DNA of 64,000 nt from the NCBI RefSeq assembly GCF_015291705.1, contig NZ_CP030050.1, forward strand, positions 7,564,001 to 7,628,000. The letters are read 5' to 3'. The notes below the pieces were generated by a model. That model was not told the DNA's origin and did no database searches. It was given only the letters and a program-made list of their open reading frames with translations. The number at the start of each line of letters is the position of its first letter. Within the stretch, counting starts at the first letter, position 1. The stretch is from Bradyrhizobium arachidis. GTDB taxonomy: Bacteria > Pseudomonadota > Alphaproteobacteria > Rhizobiales > Xanthobacteraceae. Position numbers and translations under genes: made by a program. Shown piece by piece: positions 18,257 through 57,547 of the stretch.

Positions 18257-18319
18257 GTATGACGCTCCGCTGCGGGGTTGAGCGGGAGCGCAACTTGCGT
18301 TCACACCACCGATAGATGC
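18257..18319 (-). promoter_or_regulatory. Repeated leader motif, copy L1
   Basis: Reads (minus strand) ATCGGTGGTG...GAACGCAAGTTGCGCTCCCGC then a GGAGCG before the ATG. The first box is partly degenerate, but the second box, its hairpin (CGCAA/TTGCG) and the pairing with the ribosome-binding site are kept. Confidence 0.5.
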
Positions 18320-18565
18320 TATGGGCCGTTCGATGGCAGTGGGACAGTGCGCCTTTATCTGTCGAATAGCGAGCGCTTTGTTCGGTTCCTGGCAGGAACT
18401 ATTTGCGAAGTGCCGGAAGCTAGTCGATGGTCTGCAATGCAGTACTGGCAGGGAGCAACTCTCTTGCAATTCTCCGCCCTGGCGCCGACCTTTCTGTGAT
18501 CAGCACTTGCGCCTTACGACAGAGGCCAAATTCAAATTGAAGCAGGAGCTGCACACCGAGCGCTT

Positions 18566-18745
18566 CTATTGGCGTTGCTGATCTCTGAGCGATCGGCTGA
18601 TCGCTCGTTCAGCTGCGCTGACAGCCTCCACTCGATTGAAGGCAATTCCGGTTCGGGGTGACCGACCGTCTCGCTCAAACGACCATTTCCAGCCGGGCGG
18701 ATTGATCGTCTGGACCACCGTATATTTAATGCCCTGATGTTCCAT
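18566..18745 (-). CDS. Small conserved hypothetical protein
   Basis: 59 residues: MEHQGIKYTVVQTINPPGWK followed by WSFERDGRSPRTGIAFNRVE. The pattern Y-T-V-V-Q-T-x-N-P-x-GWKW-x-x--D-G-x-x-RTG is typical of a rhizobial small-protein family of unknown function with an apparent short beta-sheet and a C-terminal helix. No clear promoter is seen. Confidence 0.6.
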   Translation of the reverse strand: MEHQGIKYTVVQTINPPGWKWSFERDGRSPRTGIAFNRVEAVSAAERAISRSLRDQQRQ

Positions 18746-18896
18746 ACGCGATCACGACTATGGGGCTAAAGCAACCGTACGCGGCGACAAACCTCGGTTA
18801 CTCAGCATCGCTTGAAGTCTCTTCGAACGATCGACGCGGACCGCTTTGAATTCCGCTGGCCCGTCAAGCAGGCGCTGCTTTCTGGCCGATGGGTCC

Positions 18897-18992
18897 TTAG
18901 AATCGCAGAGTGGTCTGCCCTCCCATCCAAAGCCGTGCCCGCCAGATGAAGAGCGCGCTTTCGTTGGCGGCCCACTCGGCGATCTTTAGCAT
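18897..18992 (-). CDS. Possible 31-aa peptide
   Basis: A short frame reading MLKIAEWAANESALFIWRAR then LWMGGQTTLRF. It has a plausible amphipathic helix but only weak start signals. Included because its composition is protein-like, unlike the overlapping longer frame. Confidence 0.35.
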   Translation of the reverse strand: MLKIAEWAANESALFIWRARLWMGGQTTLRF

Positions 18993-19044
18993 CGTTCGTC
19001 ATCTTATAGGTCTCTTAATTGGCGCGCATGTTCGGAAGCGAAAC

Positions 19045-19317
19045 TCAGCAACCGCGGCAAATATTCTTGAGCTTCGCGGCGGTTCGGGCTTCTTCCGCAA
19101 GAAATGGATCCTTGTAGCCTGACGATGAGTCGATGCCGGCTTCGGCGGGCTTCCTGGCTTTTGGAGGAAATGCCGCATCGTAACAGGAAAGGCGGGCGCT
19201 GGTGCTTTCGATCGCACGGCAATTCGGCTCCGCGGCAACAGCTGCTGGCGTGAATGTGCCCAGTGCGGATGTCAGCAAAAGCGCCGCGGTCCATCTGCCT
19301 GTTCGAACCATCCTCAT
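19045..19317 (-). CDS. Secreted small protein with RLxCYD motif
   Basis: 90 residues with a clear signal peptide (RTGRWTAALLLTSALGTFTP, cleavage after AAVAA) and a mature part starting EPNCRAIESTSARLSCYDAA. The C-x(10-12)-RL-CYD-xxPP element is found in several small periplasmic proteins; two Cys may form a disulphide. Ends KLKNICRGC. Start chosen at 19317 because the signal peptide begins there. Function unknown. Confidence 0.65.
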   Translation of the reverse strand: MRMVRTGRWTAALLLTSALGTFTPAAVAAEPNCRAIESTSARLSCYDAAFPPKARKPAEAGIDSSSGYKDPFLAEEARTAAKLKNICRGC

Positions 19318-19333
19318 GCTGAGCACTCCATAG

Positions 19334-19528
19334 CTATTTGGTTTTACTCGCCCAGGTGGGGCTCTCGCCGGTCCAGGCCGGAAGAGCATCCCATTCGGAC
19401 CAACGCATCCGGCGCTCCTCACCTCCGACCCTCACGAAGACAAAGGGCGCATCGTCCCGGCCAGTCTTCGAACCAACGAAGATTGCCGGAACCCCGTAGG
19501 CATCCCTGATGATTGCCGTGTTTGCCAT
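19334..19528 (-). CDS. Small conserved hypothetical protein
   Basis: 64 residues: NTAIIRDAYGVPAIFVGSKT, then GRDDAPFVFVRVGGEERRMR and WSEWDALPAW. Strand-rich, with a pattern I associate with rhizobial small proteins. It lies 16 bases upstream of the secreted small gene on the same strand, so co-transcription is likely. Function unknown. Confidence 0.5.
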   Translation of the reverse strand: MANTAIIRDAYGVPAIFVGSKTGRDDAPFVFVRVGGEERRMRWSEWDALPAWTGESPTWASKTK

Positions 19529-19607
19529 TTTGGGCTCCCGTTTGGCCTGAACTGGCTCAACGCCCCGGTTTGCAGTTCTGACGCATCGTGCTTGAACGGA
19601 TTTACCG

Positions 19608-19709
19608 CTATAAAATGGCCGTCACCGCAATCAGCAGTACGAGGAAGACCGGTACCAACAAGGGTGGTACGAGCCACTCACGAATGTCGAATTTGTCGGA
19701 ATTTGACAT
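19608..19709 (-). CDS. 33-aa membrane peptide of the leader-linked family
   Basis: Sequence MSNSDKFDIREWLVPPLLVP then VFLVLLIAVTAIL: a short polar head with the REWLVPP motif and one membrane helix. Closely related peptides are encoded at 23871 and 57440 and a more distant one at 52334. Each follows the same leader. Too short for usual gene callers. Function unknown. Confidence 0.7.
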   Translation of the reverse strand: MSNSDKFDIREWLVPPLLVPVFLVLLIAVTAIL

Positions 19710-19769
19710 CTGACCGCCTTCTCTTGGGTTGAGGCGGGAGCGCAACGCTCTCAGTCACCGATAACAGCC
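19710..19769 (-). promoter_or_regulatory. Repeated leader motif, copy L2
   Basis: Minus strand: GTTATCGGTGACTGAGAGC, short loop, GCTCCCGCC, then AAGGCGG ahead of the ATG. GAGCG-TTG-CGCTC forms a hairpin, and CCGCC can pair with the GGCGG that serves as ribosome-binding site. Confidence 0.65.
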
Positions 19770-19866
19770 ACGTAGCGCGCGGTGATGTGAACTGTGTAGC
19801 AGCCTTCTAACCAATTAGCGAGATCAATCTCAGCCGCCTGGTAGCCAATCGCCCAAGGCGAGCCCT

Positions 19867-20105
19867 TTACACACGCTCATCAGTCCGCACCTTGAAGCTG
19901 ACGAGCGTGTTGGGTCGAAAGTTTGGGCGATCGGAACATCCGCCGCATCGCGGCCTTGCGCGATCAGGACGCGGCCGAATCGCGGAGTGCTGTTGCCTGC
20001 ATCGAATGTGTACCAGCGGCGCCAAGATAGGCTTCGAACCAGCCTGCAAAGTCCCCGGGCGGCGTGGGACGCCGGGATGCCGATGTCGCCGAGACAGCCG
20101 GTGCA
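19867..20105 (-). pseudogene. Transglutaminase-like protein, 3'-end remnant
   Basis: Across two or more frames the minus strand encodes LGDIGIP, GDFAGWFEAYLG, YTFDAGN-TPRFGRVLIAQG and FRPNTLVSFKVRTDE, matching the last third of the intact proteins at 30866 and 59176. Frameshifts separate the segments. This is a third, decayed copy lying outside the integrase end of the island. Confidence 0.8.
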
Positions 20106-20134
20106 ACAGCGCGAGGACGCCTTAGTTGGCGGAC

Positions 20135-20302
20135 TTACTCGACAGCGGCGCTCTTGATCTGATGGATATATTTGACCGCAAGATCGCCGCGACGTTGAGC
20201 CGTCACTGGATCATCAACTTGGTTTGCCCTGCGGCACTGCTCAACTTTCGCGATGATCGCGGCCTGCAATTGCCGATCGACGCCTAGGATCCGTTCCGTC
20301 AT
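20135..20302 (-). CDS. Hypothetical 55-aa protein
   Basis: MTERILGVDRQLQAAIIAKV then EQCRRANQVDDPVTAQRRGD; helical, charged, ending KSAAVE. The frame stays open 15 codons further upstream without a start codon, so it may be the end of a truncated gene at the island edge. No relative recognised. Confidence 0.35.
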   Translation of the reverse strand: MTERILGVDRQLQAAIIAKVEQCRRANQVDDPVTAQRRGDLAVKYIHQIKSAAVE

Positions 20303-20372
20303 CCCAACAAACTGCTGAGTGTCGCGCGACGCCCCTCTTTATCGGGCGCTGTTGGCCGTTGGTTTGAAAAAG

Positions 20373-20402
20373 ACCGTTTGAAAAATCAGACGCTCAAACG
20401 GT
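20373..20402. repeat. Inverted ACCGTTTGA repeat beside the attachment site
   Basis: ACCGTTTGA (20373-20381) and TCAAACGGT (20394-20402) are perfect inverted 9-mers. The same word occurs twice more on the other side of the tRNA fragment. Could be integrase arm sites or a terminator with a T-rich end. Confidence 0.5.
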
Positions 20403-20424
20403 TTTGCCCGCTAAACTACTGATT

Positions 20425-20471
20425 TGGTGGGGCGCACCAGGGCTCGAACCTGGGACCCGCTGATTAAGAGT
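20425..20471 (-). other. tRNA-Lys(CTT) 3' fragment: attachment-site remnant
   Basis: On the minus strand it contains the 3' side of the anticodon arm with anticodon CTT (ACTCTTAATCAG), the variable loop, a proper T-arm (CCAGG TTCGAGC CCTGG) and an encoded CCA end. The 5' half is absent and the acceptor strand has one extra C (TGCGCCCC), so it cannot be a working tRNA. Known: tyrosine integrases recombine at tRNA 3' ends. The integrase gene begins 180 bases away, so this marks the island boundary. Confidence 0.75.
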
Positions 20472-20611
20472 TCAAAACCGGCGCCTCTCTGCGATTTCTG
20501 AATCTGCGCCACACTACGATGAAGTCGAGAAAGGTCTTTTATTTATAGAGACTTGTCGCATAGCTTCGCAGCCCAGCGAACCCTGACCTTCAAACACCTC
20601 AGTTCGCCAAA

Positions 20612-20630
20612 ACCGTTTGAAAACCGTTTT
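20612..20630 (+). repeat. Direct ACCGTTT repeats before the integrase gene
   Basis: ACCGTTTGA followed after one base by AACCGTTTT, 20 bases before the integrase ATG. They repeat the word found at 20373-20402, as expected for arm-type binding sites flanking an att core. Confidence 0.45.
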
Positions 20631-20650
20631 AGCAGTTCACGTCGACCCTC

Positions 20651-22009
20651 ATGACCGACATTCGCATTGCTCTCAGCGATAAGGCCATCGCTCAGCTGCC
20701 GACTCCTGAAGATGGCTGGTATTTGGCTCGCGACACCGAGTTGAAAGGCTTCTTCGTGGTCGTCGGGAAGCGAAAAAGGACCTTCACTGTTCAAGGTGAT
20801 CTTAGACAACGAGGAAAGCGGGCCTCCTCCATCAGAGTATCGATCGGTGACGCCAGCGAGTTGACGACCAGGGCAGCCCGCGCGATTGCCAAGGAATATC
20901 TTGCTCAGATCAGCAAGGGACAGCACCCGAAAGCGAGGGAGAACGGAAACTCAGAACAAGCCGCGACCGATGGGAATGGTGCTGTAGGGGCCGCTACCCT
21001 GGAGCAGACTTGGCAACGCTACCTGGAAGCCCACTTGATCCGAAAAGGCCGTAGCGAGAAAACGATCAGCGGGTATCGCGATCACGTTGAACGCCTCTTT
21101 TCGGAATGGCTGAAGACCCCTTTGCTGGATCTTGCGAATGATCCCGCTCGCGTCGCCAAAAAGCATGATCAGCTTACTAAGGAGAACGGTCCCTACATCG
21201 CGAATGGCAGCATGCGGACGCTGCGGGCCATCTACAATCATGCGCGGAAGACCAATCGATCGCTGCCGCGTGACAACCCCGCAGATGCTGTCGATTGGAA
21301 TCAGGAAGAGCGCAGGAATACTGGTATGGGGACCGGCGATTTGAAAGGATGGTTTTTCGAACTGGCCAATCTAGAGAACCCAATCCGGCGCGAATTCCAT
21401 CTTTTAGCATTGCTGTGTGGATCTAGACCCACCGCCTTGCAGCAGGCCAGACCCGAACACATAAATTTTCGACGGCGTACGCTTCACATCCCAAAGCCCA
21501 AAGGAGGCAGCAAGCGAGCGTTCGACATCCCGCTATCTCGGCAAATGATCCTGTGTCTCATTCGGGTGCTTCGTTTCGGCAGGCAAATGCAGCCGTCTCA
21601 GGCGCAAAAGTGGTTGTTCCCCGCTGAGAGCGCCTCTGGACACTTAGCGGAAACAAAGGAAGATCGAGAGGTCTTGTCAAAATGGGGCAATGACCTTCGT
21701 CAAACATTTCGGACGATTGCGACCGCTGCCGGCGTTTCCGAATTCGATGCTAAGCTCCTCATGAACCATTCTATCCCTGGCGTGAACGCAGGCTATGTCA
21801 CTCGGCACAAGCTGGTTGAAGACCACCTGCGCAGCCAACAGCAAGCTATCAGTACCGTCGTGTTTTCCGCACTTGGTGAGTCGCTAAAGGAACATAAAGC
21901 TCTGATCAATTGGCTCGGTCCCGGGGCTAGCCGAAGCACCGTTACCCAAGTCCGATTGGAGCCAAACACTCTGGGCGAGGGGCAAGAACGAACTCAGCAG
22001 GTAGCATGA
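20651..22009 (+). CDS. int: Tyrosine-type site-specific integrase
   Basis: 452 residues. An N-terminal arm-binding-type domain (about 1-100: DGWYLARDTELKGFFVVVGK) and a SAM-like core-binding domain (about 115-210) precede the catalytic domain. Catalytic residues visible: Arg in ALLCGSRPTALQQ, Lys region in PKPKGGSKRAFDIPLS, Arg in NDLRQTFRTIA, His in LMNHSIPG, and the nucleophile Tyr in NAGYVTRHK. The first His of the usual H-D-L-R box is Asn. Known: integrates and excises mobile islands at tRNA genes; here the target was tRNA-Lys(CTT). Confidence 0.92.
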   Translation: MTDIRIALSDKAIAQLPTPEDGWYLARDTELKGFFVVVGKRKRTFTVQGDLRQRGKRASSIRVSIGDASELTTRAARAIAKEYLAQISKGQHPKARENGNSEQAATDGNGAVGAATLEQTWQRYLEAHLIRKGRSEKTISGYRDHVERLFSEWLKTPLLDLANDPARVAKKHDQLTKENGPYIANGSMRTLRAIYNHARKTNRSLPRDNPADAVDWNQEERRNTGMGTGDLKGWFFELANLENPIRREFHLLALLCGSRPTALQQARPEHINFRRRTLHIPKPKGGSKRAFDIPLSRQMILCLIRVLRFGRQMQPSQAQKWLFPAESASGHLAETKEDREVLSKWGNDLRQTFRTIATAAGVSEFDAKLLMNHSIPGVNAGYVTRHKLVEDHLRSQQQAISTVVFSALGESLKEHKALINWLGPGASRSTVTQVRLEPNTLGEGQERTQQVA

Positions 22010-22299
22010 CTTCGAACTGGCCGCCTGAGGAGTGTGACAGTGTAACTCGGGAGACTGTTCTGGACGGTGTGCCGAGAGTTAGCAGCGGTTTCCAAACGCC
22101 CCCAAGGACCCGCGCCTACCGGCCTTCTGTACGTAACGAACTCACGGGCTTAAGCGTCCTTTTGAGGGCAACGGATCAGAATCCGAATGGCGGAATCAAA
22201 AACCTGCTTGATTATTCAACGATTTCAAAGCGCGTTTGGAAAAAAATAGCCGAATTCGCCGCTAGTAACATCAATTGCTTAGCAAGCATTTCCAAATAA
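22006..22299 (+). CDS. Hypothetical protein overlapping the integrase end
   Basis: 97-codon frame whose ATG overlaps the integrase TGA (ATGA). No recognised domain; rich in Pro, Arg and Ser in the first half. It could be a small excision-related or unrelated protein, or chance frame. Weak. Confidence 0.3.
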   Translation: MTSNWPPEECDSVTRETVLDGVPRVSSGFQTPPRTRAYRPSVRNELTGLSVLLRATDQNPNGGIKNLLDYSTISKRVWKKIAEFAASNINCLASISK

Positions 22300-22692
22300 T
22301 GAAGCTCCTCTCCCAGTGAAGATAGGGTCCGAACGCCACCGGGGTTGCGGGCGTGGCAGCGGGTTACTGGCGGCAGATCGATGCATCCAAGGGTCGGGGG
22401 GTTCGTGCGCCATCATTGCGGTCTAATATGATCGCGAGCAGGCTCAAATCCCGGAGACGTAATCACCGATACCGACTTCCAGTCTAGGTCGCGATTAACC
22501 GAGGGGCCCCGCGCCCCTTCGCGTCCGACGTCAGGCGGGTTTTCTCGGGTGTGGGTATCAAGCCGCCATCAACTTGGAAACCCTGCTCCTCGCCTGCACC
22601 TGCGTTGAAAATATTCACAGTCGAGCTCCTGGAACCATCCTGTCGCGAGCCTATTGGCTCACTGACACAATCACTTTTGGAGAAATGCTATT
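22300..22692. other. Intergenic stretch, nothing recognised
   Basis: About 390 bases with no frame of protein-like composition. A GC-rich inverted repeat (GGGGCCCCGCGCCCC region near 22502) is the only structure seen. Confidence 0.4.
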
Positions 22693-23007
22693 ATGAAAAC
22701 CTTCGCAATCGCTCTGGCAGCCGCCGCAAGTACACTTATTGTGACCGCCGCTTCAGCCGCCCCGCTTTTCGCCAGTGTATCGATTGCACCGGAGAGCAAC
22801 ATTCAAAACGTTCGCATGGTCTGCAATGAAGATGGTCGCTGCTGGCGTGAACGCGGCGAACGCCATGTTATCATCCGCGACGGGCGCGATGCTTACGGAT
22901 ACGCTCCACGCGAGCGTTACATCGAGCGGCGCGGCTATGACGACCGTGCCGGCGTCGGCTTCCGCGCTCCCGGCGTGAGCGTCGGAATCGGGACCGACCG
23001 CTACTGA
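22693..23007 (+). CDS. Secreted basic small protein
   Basis: 104 residues with a signal peptide (KTFAIALAAAASTLIVTAAS, cleavage near ASAAP). The mature part has one Cys pair region (VRMVCNEDGRCWRERGERHV) and an Arg/Tyr/Gly-rich tail, a layout common in rhizobial periplasmic proteins of unknown function. A palindromic terminator follows 23 bases after the stop, so this is a single-gene transcript. Confidence 0.7.
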   Translation: MKTFAIALAAAASTLIVTAASAAPLFASVSIAPESNIQNVRMVCNEDGRCWRERGERHVIIRDGRDAYGYAPRERYIERRGYDDRAGVGFRAPGVSVGIGTDRY

Positions 23008-23030
23008 GAGACGACGGGATATCTATGAAT

Positions 23031-23056: not shown

Positions 23057-23230
23057 TCATTGAGGCCATCTTCAAATGGCATAGATCGAACGCTTCACTC
23101 GGCGTCTGACGCTCAGTCTCGGTTAAACTCTGCCGCTACCCCTCGTGGTCAGTCGAGAGTATTCAGATGGCCAGATCGAAGCACATCAAGCAGTTTCGCC
23201 GATCAGGCGAAATCCAGAAGCACGATCGGT

Positions 23231-23491
23231 TCAAAAATTTGCGGCGACCAGGTCGTAAGAGCCCCTGCTGCCGCGGACGTACATCTTGGCAGCGGCGGCG
23301 CATATCAAGTCACGATTGGAATCGAATGCGCGGAGGAAGCCCGGCTCATCGCAACCGATATCCGGTTGAATTCGCTTCAGCGCATTTTCGTTGATGAAGA
23401 ACGATGCCTCAATAGCGCTGTCGTGTCCCCAGAATCGGACGGCACGCCGCGTGCGGTCATAAGACCGGCTATGGTTCGGAAACTCGATCAT
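23231..23491 (-). CDS. DUF1488 protein (block A copy)
   Basis: 86 residues: MIEFPNHSRSYDRTRRAVRF, WGHDSAIEASFFI, LKRIQPD, AFDSNRDLICAAAAKMYVRG and a final SYDLVAANF. All are DUF1488 hallmarks (F-P-N-x-SRS-D-T---VRFWG-D-A-E--FF; AFD-NR--I---A-K-Y-RG--GSY-L). Function unknown. The near-identical copy is at 56852-57112. Start chosen at the conserved MIEFPN. Confidence 0.85.
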   Translation of the reverse strand: MIEFPNHSRSYDRTRRAVRFWGHDSAIEASFFINENALKRIQPDIGCDEPGFLRAFDSNRDLICAAAAKMYVRGSRGSYDLVAANF

Positions 23492-23812
23492 GTTGTCGGG
23501 GCCGATCAGTTGTCGGAGCACGAGACCTCCGTGCCGGCTGCACGCGATTTGCGTCGCGGCATATTCGATGGCGATAGCCGATCCTGTCTCCGACGCACTT
23601 GCGTGCAACCGGTCGATACGCTGACAAGATGTGCGGTAGCCAAAGCTTGGCGCGAAGGGAGGGAGTTTGGAGCGATCCGGTTGCGCCACCCTCCAAATTG
23701 CTATGCTGGAAGCGGATTACCACCCCGCTCGATCCTGTCACAGCAAATAGTTGCGCCTGGCCTCGTAATTCTGCGGATCGGCACTATATCCTAGACATCA
23801 CCGCCCGCCCCT

Positions 23813-23870
23813 CGGCTGTTATCGGTGACTGAGAGCATTGTGCTCCCGCCGCGACCTAGAGGCGGTTACT
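23813..23870 (+). promoter_or_regulatory. Repeated leader motif, copy L3
   Basis: CGGCTGTTATCGGTGACTGAGAGC, ATTGT, GCTCCCGCC, ten bases, GAGGCGG, then the ATG. GAGAGC pairs with most of GCTCCC, and CCGCC can instead pair with the GGCGG of the ribosome-binding site. Confidence 0.7.
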
Positions 23871-23978
23871 ATGTCAGATATCTCCAAATTCAGCGTTCGC
23901 GAGTGGCTGGTGCCTCCGGTACTGCTGCCGATCTTCTTTGTGCTGCTGATCGCTGCTGCGATGCTTATTCAGTGGTAA
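23871..23978 (+). CDS. 35-aa membrane peptide of the leader-linked family (block A)
   Basis: MSDISKFSVREWLVPPVLLP then IFFVLLIAAAMLIQW: polar head, WLVPP motif, single membrane helix. The block B copy at 57440 has the same length. Its stop overlaps a possible GTG start of the next gene (GTGGTAA). Confidence 0.72.
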   Translation: MSDISKFSVREWLVPPVLLPIFFVLLIAAAMLIQW

Positions 23979-24217
23979 TTTCCCTCGTTGGGCCCGCGCC
24001 GTCTGCTGAAGCCAACCGCTCATTCCGGCCAGTCAAGCGAGTCCAATCGTCGTTAGCTTGCAAGCTGAACATCCGGGCGGCAGACGCCCTGGATGGAGCC
24101 CGCAAGATGCCGCCGGGAGACGAGCGCGCGGAGGCGATGAAAATGGCTACGATCCTGGAGAACGCCGCTGAAATGCTCGAGCATTTCAGCGGCAGGGTCG
24201 GCGTGCCAGCAAAATGA
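23972..24217 (+). CDS. Small helical protein of the LLRKA-like family
   Basis: From a GTG overlapping the stop of the membrane peptide the frame gives about 81 residues; the conserved part is LNIRAADALDGARKMPPGDE then RAEAMKMATILENAAEMLEH. It fits the ARxxPPGxERxEAxxxAxxLxxAA pattern of the genes at 14579 and 18056. The start is uncertain. No copy of this gene is present in block B. Confidence 0.45.
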   Translation: MVISLVGPAPSAEANRSFRPVKRVQSSLACKLNIRAADALDGARKMPPGDERAEAMKMATILENAAEMLEHFSGRVGVPAK

Positions 24218-24361
24218 CGGTTGAGAGCTATCTTCTTTTCGCGCTCCACCGCTCAGGCCCAAACTCGGATATTTAGGAAAACAGCACCCGGGCATGGATC
24301 GTAGGGGCACCGAGATGCTTGTCTCAGATCAATCGCTTGTTTCAGTCACACCCGTTTTCCC

Positions 24362-24760
24362 GTGGATGCCCATCCGATGGTGCACGATCTTTCGCGCAGT
24401 CCGGCCGTCGTTCTCATTGTCGAGGACGAGACGATGCTCCGCATGCACGCGGTCGACATGGTGGAAGACGCCGGTTACACGCCGATTGAAGCCCTGGATA
24501 CCGACGACGCCGTCGCAATCCTGGAATCCAGGTCCGACGTCGCACTCATATACACCGACATTCAGTTGCCCGGCGGCATGGACGGCCTGGGTCTTGCGCA
24601 TACCGTGCATAAGCGTTGGCCGGCGATCAAGATCATCCTGGTGTCGGGCCAATTGAACCCATCGAGCATCGATCTTCCCCCCTGCAGCAGATTTTTTGGC
24701 AAACCACTCCAAGCCTGGCAGATCATAGCTGAGTTACGCAGCATGATTGGTCACGCCTGA
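24362..24760 (+). CDS. Single-domain response regulator (block A)
   Basis: 132 residues, one receiver domain: acidic pocket in VVLIVEDETMLRMHAVDMVE, phosphoacceptor Asp in IYTDIQLPGGMDG, conserved Lys in FFGKPLQ. The C-terminal side has an unusual SIDLPPCSRFFGKP in place of the common P-F form. No output domain. It precedes an HWE kinase by 74 bases, the likely partner. A diverged copy lies at 57694. Confidence 0.9.
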   Translation: MDAHPMVHDLSRSPAVVLIVEDETMLRMHAVDMVEDAGYTPIEALDTDDAVAILESRSDVALIYTDIQLPGGMDGLGLAHTVHKRWPAIKIILVSGQLNPSSIDLPPCSRFFGKPLQAWQIIAELRSMIGHA

Positions 24761-25626: not shown

Positions 25627-25682
25627 CTTGTGCGCGACGTATCGCGTGACGTGAGTGGACTCCCTTTTCGGGCTTCGGGCCC

Positions 25683-25883: not shown

Positions 25884-25971
25884 GTGATGCTCCTTCCGGG
25901 TCGGGGCCGTTCACCTATGGTCGTGAAGCGAATCGGACGGCACCAAAATCGCGCACCACCTGACCGGCTGC

Positions 25972-25987
25972 TGATCAATATTGCTCA
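25972..25987. promoter_or_regulatory. Palindromic operator candidate, site P1
   Basis: TGATCAATATTGCTCA, one or two bases from the perfect palindrome TGAGCAATATTGCTCA. The 5-6-5 layout resembles Crp/Fnr-family sites. Lies between the divergent zinc-ribbon gene and desaturase gene. Confidence 0.55.
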
Positions 25988-26110
25988 CATTTTCCGAGAA
26001 GTGATTGCAAGATCGGTCAAGGAGTCCGGCCCGCATTCGCCGCATCCCGAAAGCGTACACCCCGTAGCCTCGATCAACCCGCGTCCTTTCTGAAGTGCCG
26101 GCTCCCGGAC

Positions 26111-29618: not shown

Positions 29619-29845
29619 GCGACCACGCCAGGCGTATGACAGGCAGTTACGAGGGCGGCTCGAGAGCCGCCCTTATTGTCTGATCCCACCAGACGTGCGA
29701 CCCTGCCCTGGCATCACTTGCGCCACGGCCTTGCGAAGATTTCGCCAGTTGCTGGCAAATCCAGCTACCATTCCCGTCGGAATGCGATCCGTCTCCATCA
29801 TTCGAGCGGATCGTAAGCCCTTAACCCTCGTCGACCGGCGACATC

Positions 29846-30739
29846 ATGGCGATCTTCATCGTCCGGCATAGTACAACGTACCGGTACGAGCGCGAGGTAA
29901 GGCTCGGCCGGCATCAGCTAATGGCACGTCCGAGGGACAGCTTCGATCAACGACTGATTGACTTCTCGCTCGATGTGACGCCGAAGCCCTCAGAGGTGAG
30001 ATGGCTTCATGATGTCTTTGGGAATTGCGTCGCGCACATCGAATTTGACCGCGCGAGCGATTACTTGCGATTCGACTGTGAAATCAAGGTTGACCACACT
30101 CCGGAGAACGCCCCGGACTTTAGGATTGAGGACTACGCGAAGGACCATCCATTCACGTATCATGACGAAGAGGCGCCTGACCTGGCACCTTATGTTCAGA
30201 GATGGTTCTCCGACCCGGAAGATCATGTTGGCCGGTGGCTGGACACCTTTCTCACGCGGGGGACGAAACGTCCGACGGGCCAGCTCCTGATGACCCTCAA
30301 TGAAGCAATCTCGGATGGCTTCGCATATGACCGCCGCACGGCGCCAGGAACTCAAATTCCCTCCACCACACTTGAACTGAGGAAAGGCACCTGCAGGGAC
30401 TTTGCCATTTTGATGATTGAAGCCGCACGCAGTCTGGGCTTCGCCGCGCGCTTTATCACGGGCTACATCTACGTACCGGATCGCGATGGACCTACCTGGC
30501 TGGGTGGGGGAGCCACTCATGCCTGGTGCCAGATTTACGTCCCCGGTTCGGGCTGGGTCGAGTTCGATCCGACCAACGGCATCGTCGGAAACCGGGACTT
30601 AATTCGCGTCGCGGTGGCCAGAATCCCGAGCCAGGCCATTCCCCTGTTCGGCACCTATTGGGGAAGTCGCGAGGACGAGCTTGGAATGAATGTGGAGGTC
30701 AACGTCAAAACGGCGTCGGCTCTATTTTTGCTGCTGTGA
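29846..30739 (+). CDS. Transglutaminase-like cysteine protease-fold protein, type 1 (block A)
   Basis: 297 residues. N-terminal beta domain (MAIFIVRHSTTYRYEREVRL, the transglutaminase N-terminal type), then the catalytic core with Cys in LRKGTCRDFAILMIEAARSL, His in GGGATHAWCQIYVPG and Asp in WVEFDPTNG: an intact Cys-His-Asp triad. Known: bacterial members cleave or ligate peptide/amide bonds; substrates are mostly unknown. It is followed after 126 bases by a second, different transglutaminase-like gene; both are duplicated in block B, where this one is frameshifted. Confidence 0.9.
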   Translation: MAIFIVRHSTTYRYEREVRLGRHQLMARPRDSFDQRLIDFSLDVTPKPSEVRWLHDVFGNCVAHIEFDRASDYLRFDCEIKVDHTPENAPDFRIEDYAKDHPFTYHDEEAPDLAPYVQRWFSDPEDHVGRWLDTFLTRGTKRPTGQLLMTLNEAISDGFAYDRRTAPGTQIPSTTLELRKGTCRDFAILMIEAARSLGFAARFITGYIYVPDRDGPTWLGGGATHAWCQIYVPGSGWVEFDPTNGIVGNRDLIRVAVARIPSQAIPLFGTYWGSREDELGMNVEVNVKTASALFLLL

Positions 30740-30865
30740 TGAAGTGGCTGGAACACAAGCACCACCAGGGCGTTGGGGTTCGCGCCGCGCCGTGTCGCGA
30801 GTGTAGGGTGAGCACACACAAGATCGAAGTAGTCGAGCAGCCTTCTCGACTTTGGAGGACGCCGA

Positions 30866-31675
30866 GTGAAGATCCGGGTCGGCTATGAGATGGTCTACGA
30901 GTTTCCGCAACCCACACCCATGATCATGGTCCTGGGCGTTCATTTTACCCGGGCTTCCGACGTTATCGTGCCTGACTATCTGACCACTGATCCTCCGGTG
31001 GCGATCAACCCATACCGCGATGGCTTCGGTAACTGGTGCAGCCGTATCGTTGCTCCAGCCGGTCGACTGCGGCTGGCGGCTGATGGCATCATTCGCGACA
31101 CGGGCTTGCCGGACGCCACCGTGCCCTCGGCTTCCCAACACGCGGTCGAGGACTTGCCGGCAGAGACGATTGTGTATCTTCTCGGCAGTCGCTATTGCGA
31201 AACCGACCAGCTATCCGACACCGCGTGGAAGCTCTTCGAGAAGCAGCCGCCCGGATGGGCGCGCGTTCAGGCGATCTGCGATTTCGTCCACAATCACATT
31301 CAATTCGGCTACGAGCACGCGCGCGCCACCAAGACCTCCCGGGAAGTGTACCACGAGGGCAAGGGCGTTTGTCGCGACTTTGCGCATCTGGCCATTACGT
31401 TCTGCCGCTGCATGAACATTCCGGCAAGGTACTGCACCGGCTATTTGGGCGACATCGGCATGCCGCCCCCCTATGCGCCAGGAGACTTCGCCGGATGGTT
31501 CGAGGCCTACATTGGCGGACGTTGGTACACGTTCGATCCGCGCAACAACGTGCCACGGATTGGACGTATCCTGATTGCGCGGGGACGTGACGCCGCTGAC
31601 GTCCCGATTACGCAGACGTTCGGGCCCAACACCCTGGTGAGCTTCAAGGTGTGGACCGACGAGATCACTTCCTAG
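30866..31675 (+). CDS. Transglutaminase-like protein, type 2, catalytic His replaced (block A)
   Basis: 269 residues. Core Cys in EGKGVCRDFAHLAITFCRCM and Asp in WYTFDPRNN are present, but the position usually holding His (D-F-H-A-W in the family) reads GDFAGWFEAYIGG, so no His is available there. Ends TFGPNTLVSFKVWTDEITS. The same change is found in the copy at 59176 and in the remnant at 19867, so it is a shared trait and not a recent defect. It may be a non-catalytic or altered partner of the type 1 protein (inference). A terminator follows. Confidence 0.88.
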   Translation: MKIRVGYEMVYEFPQPTPMIMVLGVHFTRASDVIVPDYLTTDPPVAINPYRDGFGNWCSRIVAPAGRLRLAADGIIRDTGLPDATVPSASQHAVEDLPAETIVYLLGSRYCETDQLSDTAWKLFEKQPPGWARVQAICDFVHNHIQFGYEHARATKTSREVYHEGKGVCRDFAHLAITFCRCMNIPARYCTGYLGDIGMPPPYAPGDFAGWFEAYIGGRWYTFDPRNNVPRIGRILIARGRDAADVPITQTFGPNTLVSFKVWTDEITS

Positions 31676-32094: not shown

Positions 32095-32279
32095 TTCATC
32101 GTCCTCACCTTGCACTCCAAAGGCAGCACTGGTCGCCACATCGCGCGAGGCGTTAGGGGCCCTGGCTTGTGACCCGAGCACGCTCGCCCCCTGCGGAATA
32201 AGGGCAGCGGCACTATCGAACTCTCACCGATCGGCGTCCACGGCGATCGCAGCAGTATGGACCCGGCAGCGCCGCCCGC

Positions 32280-32295
32280 TGGTCAATATTGCTCA
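32280..32295. promoter_or_regulatory. Palindromic operator candidate, site P3
   Basis: TGGTCAATATTGCTCA, in the gap before the gene at 32511. Block B has the equivalent site at 61181. The rest of the 32095-32510 gap shows nothing else recognisable. Confidence 0.55.
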
Positions 32296-32510
32296 CGACC
32301 GGGAGTTTGACGGGATCACCGCAGTCCGCTGTCGCGGCAATGCTCTTTGCACGACGCAACTGGACGCCAAACGATGCCAACTATCGTGCAAGTTTATTTG
32401 GACTTTGGGCTCGTTGTCCGGACCTTTGATCCCCATATCTATTTGAGTCTGATCACCCCATCGGGGGTTGTTCGGAAGGGGCCGCGACTTTCAACGAAAG
32501 GGGGCCCGGA

Positions 32511-52323: not shown

Positions 52324-52333
52324 TCGTGTTGCG

Positions 52334-52435
52334 CTATCCACGCGGGACAACCGCTGCAAATACCAGGAGCACAGGAAACAGCAGGAAGATCACCGGCGAC
52401 ACGATCCAGTCGGCTGCCAAACGAGATCGAGACAT
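52334..52435 (-). CDS. 33-aa membrane peptide, distant member of the leader-linked family
   Basis: MSRSRLAADWIVSPVIFLLF then PVLLVFAAVVPRG. Length, W-x-V-x-P motif and single helix match the peptides at 19608, 23871 and 57440, though the sequence is otherwise diverged. GAGGAGCG precedes the ATG and can pair with CGCTCC of the leader. Confidence 0.6.
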   Translation of the reverse strand: MSRSRLAADWIVSPVIFLLFPVLLVFAAVVPRG

Positions 52436-52498
52436 CCACGCTCCTCTTCCTTTCTTTCGGCGGGAGCGTTCGTTACCCTCAGTCACCGGTGAAAGCCG
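52436..52498 (-). promoter_or_regulatory. Repeated leader motif, copy L4
   Basis: Minus strand: ACCGGTGACTGAGGG, TAACGAA, CGCTCCCGCC, 14 bases, GAGGAGCG, four bases, ATG. Pairing of CGCTCC with GGAGCG replaces the CCGCC/GGCGG pairing of L2, L3 and L6, a compensating change. Confidence 0.6.
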
Positions 52499-52502
52499 CA
52501 GG

Positions 52503-52652
52503 ATGGGCGGTGATGAGCAACTCTACGCTTACGTCCTGGGAATAGCGAGCGCTAAAACGTCGAGGAACAGCAGCGAGAGCGAATTTGCAGGGCTCTCCGC
52601 CTCGGAGTGCCGGGCGATGCTTCTTGCACAAAGCGACGAGGTCATCGAGTGA
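52503..52652 (+). CDS. Possible 49-aa protein
   Basis: MGGDEQLYAYVLGIASAKTS then RNSSESEFAGLSASECRAML. Protein-like composition but weak start signals; it lies head-to-head with the L4 leader. Confidence 0.25.
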   Translation: MGGDEQLYAYVLGIASAKTSRNSSESEFAGLSASECRAMLLAQSDEVIE

Positions 52653-53225
52653 TGCGAGTCGTTGGCTCGAATTCGAAGTCCGGAGCAGCTTCCACGAACG
52701 TCCCGAATGGCGATTGAGGTTCGCTCCACAACCAAGCAACTGTTCTGCGCCTCCCTGATCTATCGAAATAGGGACCCCGCAGCATTGAGGCTGCCTCCGT
52801 TGGCGGTCGTCGCCCTCGCCGTACCCGCAGAGTTGAATTGAATCGTTCACTCCCATGAGGCGACGACGAAACAAAGTCAGACTTCTCAGCCGGCACGTGC
52901 TATGAGCCATGAAGAGATTGTTCGTGGCGCTGATCGTTGCAGGGTCGCCACCACAGCCCAGACGATCGACCCGTCGACTGCTCCGGAAGAGGAGCCTTCC
53001 TTGCGCGAATTAGGCCGCCCGCGCCGAACAGAAGGCGGATGATGCCGGTGGCCCTAGAGAACGCTGTTGGGACTGAGGCACCGATGGGCGCGACATTGAG
53101 ATACGCCCGTGAAACCATCGGACGGGTTTGCAAAGCCCTAAGCGGGCGCCTTCCTGCCCTCAACCGAGCGCCTAATGAGGTCCGCTAACCGTTCCAAGCC
53201 GCATGTCGAGGCCGGAGACCATAAG
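52653..53225. other. Intergenic stretch
   Basis: About 570 bases. Overlapping minus-strand frames of 70-140 codons lack recognisable features. No gene supported. Confidence 0.4.
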
Positions 53226-53453
53226 ATGAGTGACGATCGGGAACTTCATCGCGCTGCCAAAGCGAACCGAGAGCGCCTTGCGGTCGCGCATCGCGAGGTG
53301 GTCTTGCAAGAAGAGGCAAAAAATGCCGTTGATATTCGCGAAAACATGGCGCGCCTCAAGGAACTGAGATTGGCCAAGGAAGCACGAGAGACTCGAACGC
53401 AAATCTCCAAAGCGAACCAGCGCCCGGCGCCTAAGCCGGGACGATCCAGATAA
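53226..53453 (+). CDS. Small charged helical protein
   Basis: 75 residues: DDRELHRAAKANRERLAVAH, VVLQEEAKNAVDIRENMARL, KELRLAKEARETRTQISKAN. One long charged helix. The ATG at 53226 begins MSDD; a longer frame from 53175 is less likely. Resembles rhizobial small proteins; function unknown. Confidence 0.6.
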   Translation: MSDDRELHRAAKANRERLAVAHREVVLQEEAKNAVDIRENMARLKELRLAKEARETRTQISKANQRPAPKPGRSR

Positions 53454-53700
53454 AGCTGATCAGTTAGCGGGTCTTCCTGTTCAGGTGCGCCTTTCGCCGC
53501 CTTGCGTGAGCAGCCAGCTGCTGGCAGTCGCTCATTCTGCGCGACCCGCGCTTCTGCTTTTCCGCACCCATGACGCGCGGTAGCTCGCGCGCGCCACGGT
53601 GCCCCCGTGAAAAGCCCGCCAGCGGTTGGTGCCAGGGCTCGAATTAGCTCGCGTTTGACTTCCCTGGGGCGCATAGTTGCACCATCACCGGTCCCGCACT

Positions 53701-53756
53701 CGGCATTACCGGTGACCGAGAGTTTTGTGCTCCCGCCTATTTGTGGGGAAGCACCC
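53701..53756 (+). promoter_or_regulatory. Repeated leader motif, copy L5
   Basis: ATTACCGGTGACCGAGAG, TTTT, GTGCTCCCGCC, then GGGGAAGCACCC before the ATG. Here GTGCT pairs with AGCAC so the GGGGAAG ribosome-binding site is again in the stem. Confidence 0.6.
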
Positions 53757-54005
53757 ATGGCCCAATCTCAGCACCTGTCGTCCGCCGTTCTTCCGGCTCC
53801 ATTTGAGCGCCCCGCCTGTCCGAAGTGCTACGCCGCGATGATGCTCGTCAGCATCGAGCCAGACCCCGCCAGGGACCTCGACTTGCATACGTTCAAATGC
53901 GCTGTCTGCAATCAGGTCTTTGAGACCCTTGCTGCATATGAAGACCCCATGAAGTCCAAGGCCCTTGGCCGCTGGCTTCAAGGCGATTTGCACCCATCGA
54001 GGTGA
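53757..54005 (+). CDS. Zinc-ribbon small protein
   Basis: 82 residues with CPKCYAAMMLVSIEPDPARD, LHTFKCAVCNQVFE: a two-pair zinc ribbon matching the gene at 25683. The ATG is set by the leader L5. C-terminal tail AYEDPMKSKALGRWLQGD. Function unknown. Confidence 0.7.
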   Translation: MAQSQHLSSAVLPAPFERPACPKCYAAMMLVSIEPDPARDLDLHTFKCAVCNQVFETLAAYEDPMKSKALGRWLQGDLHPSR

Positions 54006-54163
54006 TTTCGTGGGAAAGATGAAGCCCGCCGGAAGGGGCAGCCAGCCGCTGCCGGTCGCGCTTCATGTGAATTCGCCGCCAGCGCTTCATGCCGGACGCC
54101 CCTCGCGCTTCCATCGTGTCGGATGCGCCTGTTGACGTAATTGACGGCACATCTCCTGCGGCG

Positions 54164-54922
54164 TCATCTCCACCTCCTCGACGATCTCCTGAGGAGAAGG
54201 CGGCCCTTGAGGCGCGGTGCGGACGCGCTCTGGAAGTCGACGATGTTACCTTTCGACGAGCTTGAAATACCGGGGACGACTTCCGTGGAGCTCGAGAACG
54301 CAGCGACCTTTCCGGCGTCCACATAGGGCTTGAGAGTCTTGATCGCCTCGTCGAAGTATTTGCGGTCGTAACCTGACTCGGCGGAATTCGCCGGGTTCAG
54401 GAAGAAGTCGACATCCGGCTTTCCGACACGGACCGTCGCGTTCGCAAATACGATCCTCTGGCCTTCGACCAGGCCACCGCTGTGGTCGGTGTGGACGTGG
54501 GTGATCAGAATGTCGGTGATCTGCTCCGGCCGGTAGCCGGCCGCCGCAAGACTGGATAGGAGCTTGCCACCGTTTCCTGGCCCAAAGAGCTCGCCAGAAC
54601 CTGTATCGACGAGCACGAGGCGATCAGGCAGCGCGATCAGGAACACGTTGATCGACGCCTCGATCGGATTGCGCAGAAAGCTCACCTCGAGAAGGGCGTC
54701 CGTCTTCGCTTGAGTGGTGTTGGTCAGCAGGGCATACAGGTCCTGCGGCACCGTGCCGTCTGACAAGGCGATGACGTTGACCGCACCGACCCGGAAGCGA
54801 TAGAGATCGGCGCCCTGCACCGCGACGTGCGGTATTGGCGCCATCGACTGAGCCAAGCTCGGCGACGTTCCGTAGAGAAATACTTGAAGAACAAGGGCAA
54901 TTGGCAGGCGTATTTTGCGCAT
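54164..54922 (-). pseudogene. Secreted MBL-fold hydrolase, 3' part broken
   Basis: Signal peptide (RKIRLPIALVLQVFLYGTSP, cleavage near SLAQ), then the metallo-beta-lactamase fold with the zinc motif ITHVHTDHSGGL and RLVLVDTGSGE. After STEVVPGIS the normal G-H-T-P-G-H-T zinc segment is missing: a short deletion joins it to SKGNIV and the rest is out of family. About 252 residues against about 310 expected. Known: this subgroup includes quorum-quenching lactonase-like and aryl hydrolases. Probably inactive. Confidence 0.75.
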
Positions 54923-55195
54923 AGATATCTCCTGAGGTTGGATAGGTGATGATCTAGGCGGGCGCCCACACCTCGCGGAGACCCATGGCGTCGATTGGAG
55001 GCATCGACGCTGGCTATGCCCTCCGCGTAGTGGTGGATATGAGCCCGAAGCTCGTGATCGCCGCTCGCGTGCCGACATACGGATTGTTCGTTGCCTTACG
55101 GGTAACGTGCCGATGCCGAGCTTGCTTCTATTATCGCTTACCGAATTGAGCTTCAGTGGCGAAGCCCATACCCCAAGCACGACGAGCGTGAACAC

Positions 55196-56137
55196 ATGAC
55201 TCCGATCAGGACGTTTGATGGTCACAATGACGCCCTCCTGCGGCTATTGAGATCGACGTCTGTTGATCCGGTCGGAGAATTTCTCGCTGGCGGACCCAAG
55301 GGTCACATCGACCTGCCAAAGGCGGCAGCGGGGCATTTTGTCGGCGGCTTCTTTGCACTCTATTCGCCCTCGGTGGCGGCCCCAACCGACTTCAACAACA
55401 TGACGGGAGAAAGTTACGCTCTCGACATGCCACCCCGATTGACGCTGGGCGAAGCCCAGCCTCCAATTTTCGCGATGATTGCCACGTTGATGCGTGTCAT
55501 CCGCAGATCGAACGGACGGGTCGCGCTTTGCACGACATCGTCCGACATTGAAGCGGCGATCGATCGCCAGTCACTCGCCGTGATCCTTCATCTCGAGGGC
55601 GCAGATGCGATCGACGAGGATTTGCATCTGCTTGAGGTTGCAGCCGGCAGGCGCCTTGTTCAGGCCTGTAACGAGCTGAAGATTATGGTCGACCTCTCGC
55701 ACATCACCGAAAAGGGATTCTTCGACGTCGCACGACTCTCGAAGGCTCCACTTGTCGCGACCCACTCCAATGCCCACGCCCTTTGCCCGTCTCCACGCAA
55801 TCTCACTGACCGCCAGCTTGCCGCCATTCGCGACAGCGGAGGCATGCTAGGCTTGAACTTTGCGACCTGCTTCCTGCGCAGCGACGGGCAGATGCGCCCC
55901 GATACGCCGATCGACCTCATGGTTCGCCAACTTGATTATCTGCTCGAGAAGCTCGGCGAGGACCACGTCGGACTGGGGTCCGACTTCGACGGCGCCATCG
56001 TCCCCGAAGAAATCGGCTCCGCGGCAGGACTTGGGGCACTCTATGCGGCCCTCGAAGGACACGGTTACTCGCGCGAGCTCCTGACCAAGATCGGCTCGAC
56101 GAACTGGATCGACGTGATCAGGAGAACGATCGGGTGA
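55196..56137 (+). CDS. Membrane dipeptidase (peptidase M19) with internal deletion
   Basis: 313 residues. Zn ligands of the renal-dipeptidase family: His and Asp in TFDGHNDALLRL, Glu in ILHLEGADAI, His in VATHSNAHAL, and Asp in VGLGSDFDGAIVP. Between LLEVAAG and ACNELKIMVDLSHI the usual 40-residue stretch (Y-x-x-G-x-R-x-x--WS) is absent in frame, and the His of VDLSHI remains. Activity is uncertain. Known: M19 enzymes cleave dipeptides and some beta-lactams. Confidence 0.82.
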   Translation: MTPIRTFDGHNDALLRLLRSTSVDPVGEFLAGGPKGHIDLPKAAAGHFVGGFFALYSPSVAAPTDFNNMTGESYALDMPPRLTLGEAQPPIFAMIATLMRVIRRSNGRVALCTTSSDIEAAIDRQSLAVILHLEGADAIDEDLHLLEVAAGRRLVQACNELKIMVDLSHITEKGFFDVARLSKAPLVATHSNAHALCPSPRNLTDRQLAAIRDSGGMLGLNFATCFLRSDGQMRPDTPIDLMVRQLDYLLEKLGEDHVGLGSDFDGAIVPEEIGSAAGLGALYAALEGHGYSRELLTKIGSTNWIDVIRRTIG

Positions 56138-56851
56138 CGGCTATCGATGCTCATCGCGAACATCGATAGGAGATATCAACGATTTCATTGGCTGAAGCTC
56201 GCCGTATCGACTAGTCCCTATCACTACCCTATCCGGATCTCAAAGAATTGCGATCCCGTGCGCCGATCGCATTCATTATCGCTATTTGTACATGGGGTTT
56301 CGGTGGTCAAACGGTGGTCGAGTGCATCAACCGACTGTTGGAGCCCGCCTGAACAACGGGCGGATATGGACTGAGCATGAGGCCGGGGCGAAGACGGCCG
56401 ACCTAGCTCGCAAGCACGGGGTCTCCGAAGCGACTAACCGCGGCCGGATGAAAGTTCGGTGGCAGGTCAGATATGATAGTGGATCCGCCGCGCTCACCCA
56501 TTCAACAAAAACGACGGCTTATCGCACTATTGATTTGCTCTTGTACCACCGTCGATCGGTCGAGGGACATATCCGACCTGCTGAAGCGGGGCGGACACCC
56601 ATGTGCCTGCAGCAAATGCGTTAGCAGTCACTCCTTGACATCTAGGACCGCAGTCCATCGGTCCAGATGCGGCCGGCGTCGAGTGCAAATCACTGCTCGA
56701 GGGCGTTTGCAACTCTCTGGGGCAGACCATTGCCGGGCTAGAAAAGGCTACGCTCCTGCCTTGAAACAGAAAGAGACTCCATCTGCCTATAGGCACAGGC
56801 AGAGGGGTTCATTTGGTTCGGGTGCGAAACCCTTAAAAGGCGCCGATCGGC
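56138..56851. other. Intergenic stretch with IS remnant
   Basis: About 710 bases between the dipeptidase and the block B DUF1488 gene; apart from the transposase fragment at 56366-56463 nothing is recognised. It is the left boundary of block B. Confidence 0.5.
56366..56463 (+). mobile_element. IS3-family OrfA fragment
   Basis: Reads WTEHEAGAKTADLARKHGVS EAT, then after a frame change AKFGG. The EHEAG-K-ADL-RKHGVS-AT-YNWK-KFGG block is the helix-turn-helix of IS3-group OrfA. Only about 100 bases remain. It sits at the edge of block B and may mark an old rearrangement. Confidence 0.6.
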
Positions 56852-57112
56852 TCAAAAATTGCCGGCGACGAGATCGTAAGAGCCCCTGGTACCGCGAACG
56901 TACACCTTGGCGGCGGCGGCGCATATCAAGTCCCGATTGGAATCGAACGCGTGGAGAAGGCTCGACTCGTCGTAGCAGGTATCGGGTTGAATTCGCTTCA
57001 GCGCTTCTTCTTCGATAAAAAACGATGCCTCAATGGCGCTATCGTGTCCCCAGAATCGCACGGCACGCCGCGTGCGGTCGTATGAACGGCTATGGTTTGG
57101 AAACTCGATCAT
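56852..57112 (-). CDS. DUF1488 protein (block B copy)
   Basis: 86 residues, aligned without gaps to the copy at 23231: MIEFPNHSRSYDRTRRAVRF, WGHDSAIEASFFI, AFDSNRDLICAAAAKVYVRG. Differences cluster in LHAF/IEEE positions. Function unknown. Confidence 0.85.
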   Translation of the reverse strand: MIEFPNHSRSYDRTRRAVRFWGHDSAIEASFFIEEEALKRIQPDTCYDESSLLHAFDSNRDLICAAAAKVYVRGTRGSYDLVAGNF

Positions 57113-57381
57113 GTGGCCGGGGCAGATCCGTTGTGGAAAGGGGACTTCCTTGCCTTGCCAGCTCGACGCTATTTGCCTTTTGGACGGCCGATCTGCGACC
57201 GCCCTTACGAGCGACGGTGCCAAACCTGGCGCTGGATGAGCGTTGAGGTCCCGCAAACTCTTAGATGGCTACGTGGAAAGCGAACTACAATCCCGTTCGC
57301 CCCGGTCACAGCAAATAGTTTCTGCCTGACCTCGCTATTCCGCGGACGGGCACCATATCTTGAATATCACCGCGTGCTTCC

Positions 57382-57439
57382 CGGCTGTTATCGGTGACTG
57401 AGAGCATCGTGCTCCCGCCGCGACCAAGAGGCGGTCAAT
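57382..57439 (+). promoter_or_regulatory. Repeated leader motif, copy L6
   Basis: CGGCTGTTATCGGTGACTGAGAGC, ATCGT, GCTCCCGCC, ten bases, GAGGCGG, then the ATG. Same architecture as L3; box sequence unchanged while the flanks have diverged. Confidence 0.7.
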
Positions 57440-57547
57440 ATGTCAAACATCTCCAAATTCGGACTGCGCGCGTGGCTGGTGCCGCCGGTCCTGCTGCCGA
57501 TCTTCTTCGCGTTTGTGATCGCTGGTGCGGTACTCATTCAATGGTAG
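57440..57547 (+). CDS. 35-aa membrane peptide of the leader-linked family (block B)
   Basis: MSNISKFGLRAWLVPPVLLP then IFFAFVIAGAVLIQW. Same length as the block A peptide, with changes mainly in the membrane helix. Confidence 0.72.
   Translation: MSNISKFGLRAWLVPPVLLPIFFAFVIAGAVLIQW

Follow-up and report, generated by a model that had tools for sequence, protein, structure and literature searches.

A large family of structured 5' leaders ahead of small genes in Bradyrhizobium arachidis

Six similar sequences stand directly before very small genes in a 64-kb stretch of the Bradyrhizobium arachidis genome (64,000 nucleotides of contig NZ_CP030050.1, here called the window). They raise the question of whether such a repeated sequence acts as DNA or as RNA, and what it does to the gene behind it. 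A sequence-only reading had proposed a family of 5' leaders with two conserved boxes, the second of which (box 2) can pair with the ribosome-binding site. The six copies, L1 to L6, were found to belong to a real and large family of structured leaders before small genes, which is apparently undescribed: no description of it was found in searches of open-access papers.

Occurrence of the leader and the genes behind it

All six copies were present where the sequence-only reading had placed them. A covariance model, R1, was built from these and three further copies (nine in all). In the window, R1 matched the six at E < 1e-6, and its sole other match at E ≤ 1 had E 0.12. Since R1 matches its own building sequences by construction, the independent evidence is the many copies found elsewhere. 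In the whole B. arachidis genome (9.87 Mb, one contig), R1 gave 42 matches at E ≤ 10 and, under stricter filters, 28 at E ≤ 0.01.

In the sense direction the leader opens with ATCACCG and CGGTGA, each of which may vary, on either side of a loop. There follow a linker, most often CTGAGAG, and a brief spacer before box 2 (GYGCTCCCGCC or a variant), about 20 nt with the Shine-Dalgarno sequence (SD), and ATG. The element thus begins 15-17 nt upstream of the extents first assigned to it, and its initial arm pairs with the CGGTGA of the previously described box 1. L1 lacks ATCGGTGACTGAGAGC and has ATCGGTGGTGTGAACGC; it represents a separate subclass, in which the 5' hairpin (P1) is CCATCG/CGGTGG and box 2 ends in GCT. 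The linker varies by subclass (CUGAGAG, UGAGAACGC or GUGAACGC). Box 2 is nearly invariant: in 200 leader cores, the bases of GCUCCCGCC carry 1.6-2.0 bits each, compared with 0.03-0.42 for the bases 3' of box 2.

We examined the distribution of the leader in genome samples. In 41 genomes scanned with R1 (E ≤ 0.01), it matched in all 25 genus members, B. arachidis included, and in none of the 16 genomes of other families. The scans of more than 40 genomes ran under strict filters with 14-139 candidates scored per genome, so their counts are lower bounds. With a broader model, R2, copies were found in 189 of 195 genomes of the genus (E ≤ 0.01), in 131 of 296 genomes and 23 of 47 genera of the family (E ≤ 0.001), and in 12 of 297 genomes of the order, two of them beyond the family (E ≤ 1e-4). 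When 31 family genomes were re-scanned with laxer settings, 25 had a match, and one of seven previously unmatched genomes gained a weak match. Model R3 (E ≤ 1e-4) matched 3 of 385 genomes of the class, one of these beyond the order, and 9 of 299 genomes of the phylum, every one inside the order. A pattern scan of named genomes returned 105 stretches. The 80 that were listed include stretches from Bradyrhizobium, Methylobacterium, Microvirga, Reyranella, Rhodoplanes, Afipia, one Sphingomonas and one Phenylobacterium metagenome-assembled genome (MAG); Frankia and Armatimonadetes MAG titles were also among the matches listed, and both may be mislabelled or contaminated. Outside the family, the leader is sporadic in Alphaproteobacteria.

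The genes behind the leaders were assessed by a downstream open reading frame (ORF) test, in which a frame starts 12-32 nt after box 2 and has an SD match of at least three bases. Each window copy is followed by a very small gene, as had been noted (Table 1). In B. arachidis, 39 of the 42 copies passed the test (the misses were L069, L071 and L026:1956), and 38 of the 39 ORFs are under 100 aa, the longer one being that of L076. On the strength of this placement, we rejected a mobile repeat of the repetitive extragenic palindromic (REP) kind that would be indifferent to the downstream gene. Across the searched genomes, 189 of the 207 copies read passed; 174 of these ORFs are at most 100 aa, 6 have 101-998 aa and 9 extend beyond the available stretch. 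Among the pattern-scan matches, an ORF was present in 77 of the 81 read and was shorter than 130 aa in 64. The ratio of nonsynonymous to synonymous change (pN/pS), crudely estimated, was 0.51 over 105 non-independent pairs and 0.54 for 88 pairs of 32-36-aa peptides, values in line with coding.

The targets include 32-35-aa peptides that appear membrane-like by eye, charged proteins of about 65 aa ending in SPGLQPP, zinc-ribbon-like proteins, DUF6894 proteins (E 1.4e-17), PDTFLGRKT proteins and a few larger ones. Nine other small target proteins had no match above the Pfam cut-off, and six had none above that of NCBIfam. Among six regulator-like ORFs, a Crp-like helix-turn-helix (HTH) domain exceeded the Pfam cut-off in four (L049, L060, L152 and L177), the L076 ORF had a cyclic-nucleotide domain below threshold only, and the partial L116 ORF had no Pfam match. 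The occurrence of the leader before Crp-like HTH regulators in several genera hints at a loop between these regulators and the leader regulon. Two leader-like copies precede other kinds of frame: one that begins like an HWE/HisKA_2 histidine kinase in Pfam (L103:451-502), and one that resembles a universal stress protein by eye, its first 80 residues having no Pfam match (L118:451-504).

No named RNA family was recognised in the leader, in agreement with the sequence-only reading. When the window was compared with Rfam 15 (4227 families), no leader matched at the gathering threshold, and the sole match was a ROSE thermometer (RF00435, 55.2 bits) at 15882-15994. Fourteen loci with leaders of several subclasses also gave no match at threshold, and at E ≤ 5 a 1-kb stretch with L6 gave only a sub-threshold M23 match, which lies outside the leader. 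Other repeated, Bradyrhizobium-centred RNA sequences are the Br-REP1 and Br-REP2 repeats and the BjsR small RNAs (sRNAs), described together with small ORFs of B. japonicum USDA 110 in PMC5082802; the REP consensus printed there differs from the leader. By eye, no leader was seen at the 12 positions published there for BjsR1-7 and BjsR9 (BjsR8 and BjsR10 not among them) in a genome taken as USDA 110, and identity with the BjsR sRNAs was rejected to that extent. One leader lies 0.6 kb downstream of the BjsR5a position taken from that source, in the same genome. Ten strong copies in the genome taken as USDA 110 have cores that start at 7906930-, 6723369-, 2430993+, 3488651-, 5702514-, 5022176+, 166072+, 8824950+, 6327776+ and 6327462+ (the sign gives the strand).

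In our judgement, and from general knowledge, it would be unusual for one genome to hold about 40 members of a cis-acting RNA family, nearly all of them before small, mostly unnamed proteins. The leader would give these proteins a common control and provide a practical screen for the signal, and the combination of leader and start codon allows such proteins to be located. Soybean symbionts belong to the genus, and the signal could bear on symbiosis or on life under stress.

The P1 hairpin and the predicted transcript start

Covariation, which had been proposed as a check on the family, was found in the 5' hairpin P1 (UCACCG/CGGUGA), a feature overlooked by the sequence-only reading, but it is weak for the helix between box 2 and the SD. 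In an alignment of 106 distinct sequences, which was fitted to the model and is therefore biased towards it, 98.9% of the P1 cells are paired and changes on both sides occur at five of the six pairs. When all 11 pairs of the model were taken together, not one shuffle in 500 reached any of five measures, and slid versions scored far lower. RNAalifold gave five P1 pairs from that same alignment, and it also recovered P1 in all three subclasses that were aligned separately with plain MAFFT. When only sequence was used to anchor the arms (107 distinct arm pairs from 203 of 207 leaders), almost every permutation did worse at five of the six pairs (2, 11, 33, 50 and 51 of 1000 were as good), and the sixth is almost invariant. 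Variant arms include CACTGAT/ATCAGTG (L177), CATCGGC/GCCGATG (L176), CGCCG/CGGCG (L179) and TCACAG/CTGTGA (L207). G-U pairs are kept at three P1 pairs (45, 9 and 23 cells), which fits RNA and is unexplained by a DNA repeat. These results support the conservation of P1 as a structure and, together with the sizes of the downstream ORFs, agree with the proposal of a structured leader family before tiny genes.

Several further contacts were considered. An inner hairpin can form inside the P1 loop in 107 of 200 leaders, compared with a mean of 67 and a maximum of 84 in shuffles. A candidate 3-bp contact joins GGC in the P1 loop to GCC at the end of box 2, with AGC and GCT in the L1 subclass; this swap represents a single lineage, and L161 and L063 count against the contact. 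An open state in which box 1 (GGUG...GAG) pairs with box 2 was rejected, as distant copies, compared by eye, change GGUG together with the other P1 arm and keep box 2 constant. In most leaders the 5' arm of P1 contains AUCACC, which is identical to the 3' end of 16S rRNA; this match is probably a coincidence, because distant copies change AUCACC.

To place the leader relative to the transcript, 202 unique upstream sequences were inspected; they include related sequences and are not independent. In 63 of them, a TATAAT-like TA-hexamer starts 13 bases upstream of the U in UCACCG, compared with 4.9 in shuffles. Bacterial promoters have a usual spacing between the -10 hexamer and the transcript start, and this spacing together with the fixed distance puts the predicted start on the A of AUCACCG. 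The base at this predicted +1 is A in 91% of the upstreams, and the base before it is C or T in 85%. Conservation sets in abruptly at the predicted start, and the predicted 5' untranslated region (5'-UTR) is about 75-80 nt long. Genome-wide start mapping in USDA 110 gave typical 5'-UTRs of 20-40 nt, according to PMC4842269.

Upstream of the hexamer, a palindrome near TGGTCAATATTGACCA (at least 11 of 16 positions) was found in 42 of the 202 upstreams, compared with a shuffled rate of 2.2%. Its centre lies at -39.5 to -43.5 from the predicted start in 33 of the 202, a position classical for activators, and mostly near -41.5; the palindrome is probably the site of an unnamed activator. In 35 other cases, CTCGCTATT-like boxes begin at -34 to -37 before the predicted start. 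These unlike promoter signals at fixed distances all point to one start. The possibility that the conserved boxes are promoter DNA had been raised as the finding that would count against a leader; the promoter-like signals are instead found immediately outside the element, each at a set distance from a start that is itself deduced from sequence, and the boxes look like RNA. The same palindrome, close to TGAGCAATATTGACCA, also occurs in the window at 25964-25988 and at 32272-32296.

Probable masking of the ribosome-binding site and readings of the leader

We investigated whether the proposed covering of the SD by box 2 exceeds chance, and found that it does: a box 2/SD helix score of at least 14 was reached in 75% of 187 leaders, compared with 28% when 86 control SDs from other genes were used. 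The predicted cost of opening the SD at 37 °C had a median of 8.3 kcal/mol (10-90%: 5.1-12.2), compared with 5.4 kcal/mol when the leader body was shuffled (186 leaders), and the predicted mean unpaired probability of the SD at 37 °C was 0.18, compared with 0.28 with control SDs. These results suggest that box 2 likely masks the SD. Compensating change between the two, which the sequence-only reading had seen in the differing partners of box 2, is not established. Those partners are different registers of a near-invariant box 2 on different SDs and hence no compensating change in the usual sense, and exchanging SDs between leaders barely lowered the fit (as good in 349/5000, 120/5000 and 136/2000 shuffles). 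Within subclasses, one of four stood out (8/3000 shuffles, 19 leaders), and the others gave 3000, 1741 and 1004 of 3000.

If SD pairing were the only constraint, box 2 would be free to drift with each SD, yet the sequence of box 2, and of most of the linker, is conserved while the covered sites vary, which suggests a common reader. We propose that the family is a cis-acting 5' RNA of about 75-80 nt that gates the translation of small, possibly stress-linked proteins and is read by a factor acting in trans, a proposal that we are about equally ready to accept and to doubt. In this scheme, the mRNA would begin at the A of AUCACCG, and its first bases would fold into a 5'-terminal P1. Box 2 would cover the SD in the default state, as the excess complementarity and the predicted folding suggest, and a shared trans-acting binder would recognise the linker and box 2 and free the SD. 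The binder would most likely be an RNA-binding protein or an sRNA with imperfect complementarity, with a small-molecule ligand as the main alternative; a trans binder is ranked above a ligand, as a matter of judgement, because the targets are numerous and varied. P1, preceded by about one unpaired 5' base, may also shield the message from 5'-end decay.

Several results weigh against this proposal. The exchange of SDs between leaders indicates that the SD of another copy suits a given box 2 almost as well as its own, and masking could thus partly reflect shared SD ancestry; several leaders (e.g. L054 and L047) have only 4 contiguous box 2/SD pairs. The P2 helix (GAG/CUC), which could be an open state, is nearly constant and has almost no covariation support. 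In the first alignment, mostly of one genus, a double change was found at only one of the six P1 pairs; support for P1 covariation comes from distant copies and grows with distance, and alignments A4, A5 and A6 share sequences. The relatedness of the 202 upstreams likewise weakens the case for the predicted start. Finally, at 37 of 38 exact complements of box 2 outside leaders in two genomes (B. arachidis and one taken as USDA 110), no sRNA was evident, a result that concerns exact complements only. In these genomes the complement, GGCGGGAGCRC, has 46 and 30 sites, leaders included, compared with 53 and 44 for the reversed pattern. Every one of these 37 sites falls within an open frame (109-923 aa), although such frames are poor proof of coding, and the site L271 comes after a tRNA-like sequence. 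In B. arachidis, 6 of 17 non-leader sites have a counterpart in the second genome (87-93% identity over 174-311 nt).

Among the alternatives to a trans-acting reader, a riboswitch is the best placed. P1, linker and box 2 would form an aptamer for a small molecule or second messenger, and binding would move box 2 off or onto the SD. The element is compact, with strongly conserved bases beside a covarying hairpin: P1 covaries, and box 2 is conserved together with most of the linker, as expected of riboswitches, with covariation for one helix only. Its position directly before the start suits control at the level of translation, and in this it resembles alphaproteobacterial translational riboswitches such as SAM-II, which are likewise compact with conserved bases before the start codon. 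Four Crp-like HTH regulators are among the targets, as second-messenger systems might have. In contrast to riboswitches of the SAM-II type, however, the leader has no Rfam match at threshold, and no ligand or pathway was recognised from the targets; no gene for biosynthesis or transport was recognised among them by eye, and most have no family name. About 40 copies before unlike small proteins would, from general knowledge, be unusual for a metabolite riboswitch in one genome, and the linker differs between subclasses. We consider a riboswitch unlikely. The broader idea of a new ligand- or messenger-sensing class of RNA outside Rfam, which would carry one signal to dozens of small proteins and some Crp/Fnr-like regulators whatever their promoter, is put forward tentatively, as a possibility towards which we do not lean.

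A second alternative is that the leader only stabilises the mRNA, the 5' hairpin blocking 5'-dependent decay and the box 2/SD complementarity being inherited without any switching. In stabilising stem-loops of the ompA type, a hairpin sits at the 5' end or one base away from it, and the predicted start of the leader is one base before the stem. Unlike those stem-loops, however, the hairpin of the leader is followed by a sequence-conserved linker and an anti-SD box, and the near-invariance of box 2 and the excess SD complementarity are left unexplained, which makes this reading improbable.

The suggestion of a thermometer, in which warming melts the box 2/SD helix, fares worse. ROSE, a 5' leader of this genus, masks the ribosome-binding site, a copy lies in the same window, and the leader would likewise mask the SD with a short helix; warming lowers the opening cost of both, and roughly one leader in ten has a cost at or below that of ROSE. 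The leader has different boxes and a different 5' hairpin, however, its targets are mostly unnamed small proteins, and its predicted masking is mostly stronger. At 37 °C, opening a 9-nt SD window costs 6.5-10.1 kcal/mol in the six window copies and 5.1 in the ROSE copy, and at 42 °C the median of the leaders is 7.7 kcal/mol, compared with 4.4 for ROSE. Some box 2/SD helices reach 8-11 contiguous pairs, and a thermometer does not need a near-invariant box 2. The predicted stability and the invariance of box 2 thus disfavour a thermometer, which we regard as distinctly improbable. It is hardly credible that the boxes are promoter or operator DNA of a single regulon: the same motif does precede many genes, and ATCACCG...CGGTGA is an inverted repeat, but the predicted start coincides with the first conserved base of the element (itself placed from sequence), the -10-like hexamers and operator-like sites are found upstream of it at constant distances, P1 keeps G-U pairs, and the arm spacing ranges over 11-24 nt in 198 of 200 cores.

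Features of the window

The six leader cores and the small genes behind them are collected in Table 1.

Table 1. Leader cores, associated small genes and a promoter-like hexamer in the 64-kb window.
Feature	Position	Strand	Remarks
L1 leader core (P1 hairpin, linker, box 2)	18281..18336	-	Covariance-model match, E 9.8e-7
66-aa charged small protein after L1, '...SPGLQPPS' family	18056..18256	-	Relatives behind other leaders; no Pfam match
L2 leader core	19733..19785	-	Covariance-model match; predicted +1 at 19786, from the family pattern
33-aa peptide after L2, membrane-like by eye	19608..19709	-	ORF
-10-like TATATC before L3	23785..23790	+	Position enriched family-wide
L3 leader core	23798..23850	+	Covariance-model match; predicted +1 at 23797, from the family pattern
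35-aa peptide after L3, membrane-like by eye	23871..23978	+	No Pfam or NCBIfam family
L4 leader core	52459..52513	-	Covariance-model match; predicted +1 at 52514, from the family pattern
33-aa peptide after L4, membrane-like by eye	52334..52435	-	No Pfam or NCBIfam family
L5 leader core	53685..53737	+	Covariance-model match; predicted +1 at 53684, from the family pattern
82-aa protein after L5, zinc-ribbon-like CxxC pairs	53757..54005	+	Zn_ribbon_8 E 0.0021, under the Pfam cut-off
L6 leader core	57367..57419	+	Covariance-model match; predicted +1 at 57366, from the family pattern
35-aa peptide after L6, membrane-like by eye	57440..57547	+	Paralogue of the peptide at 23871

Long, diverged duplicated blocks were also observed in the window: 23223-24684 and 29815-31111 are 79-88% identical to parts of 56844-59421, and the blocks include L3 and L6 with their peptides.

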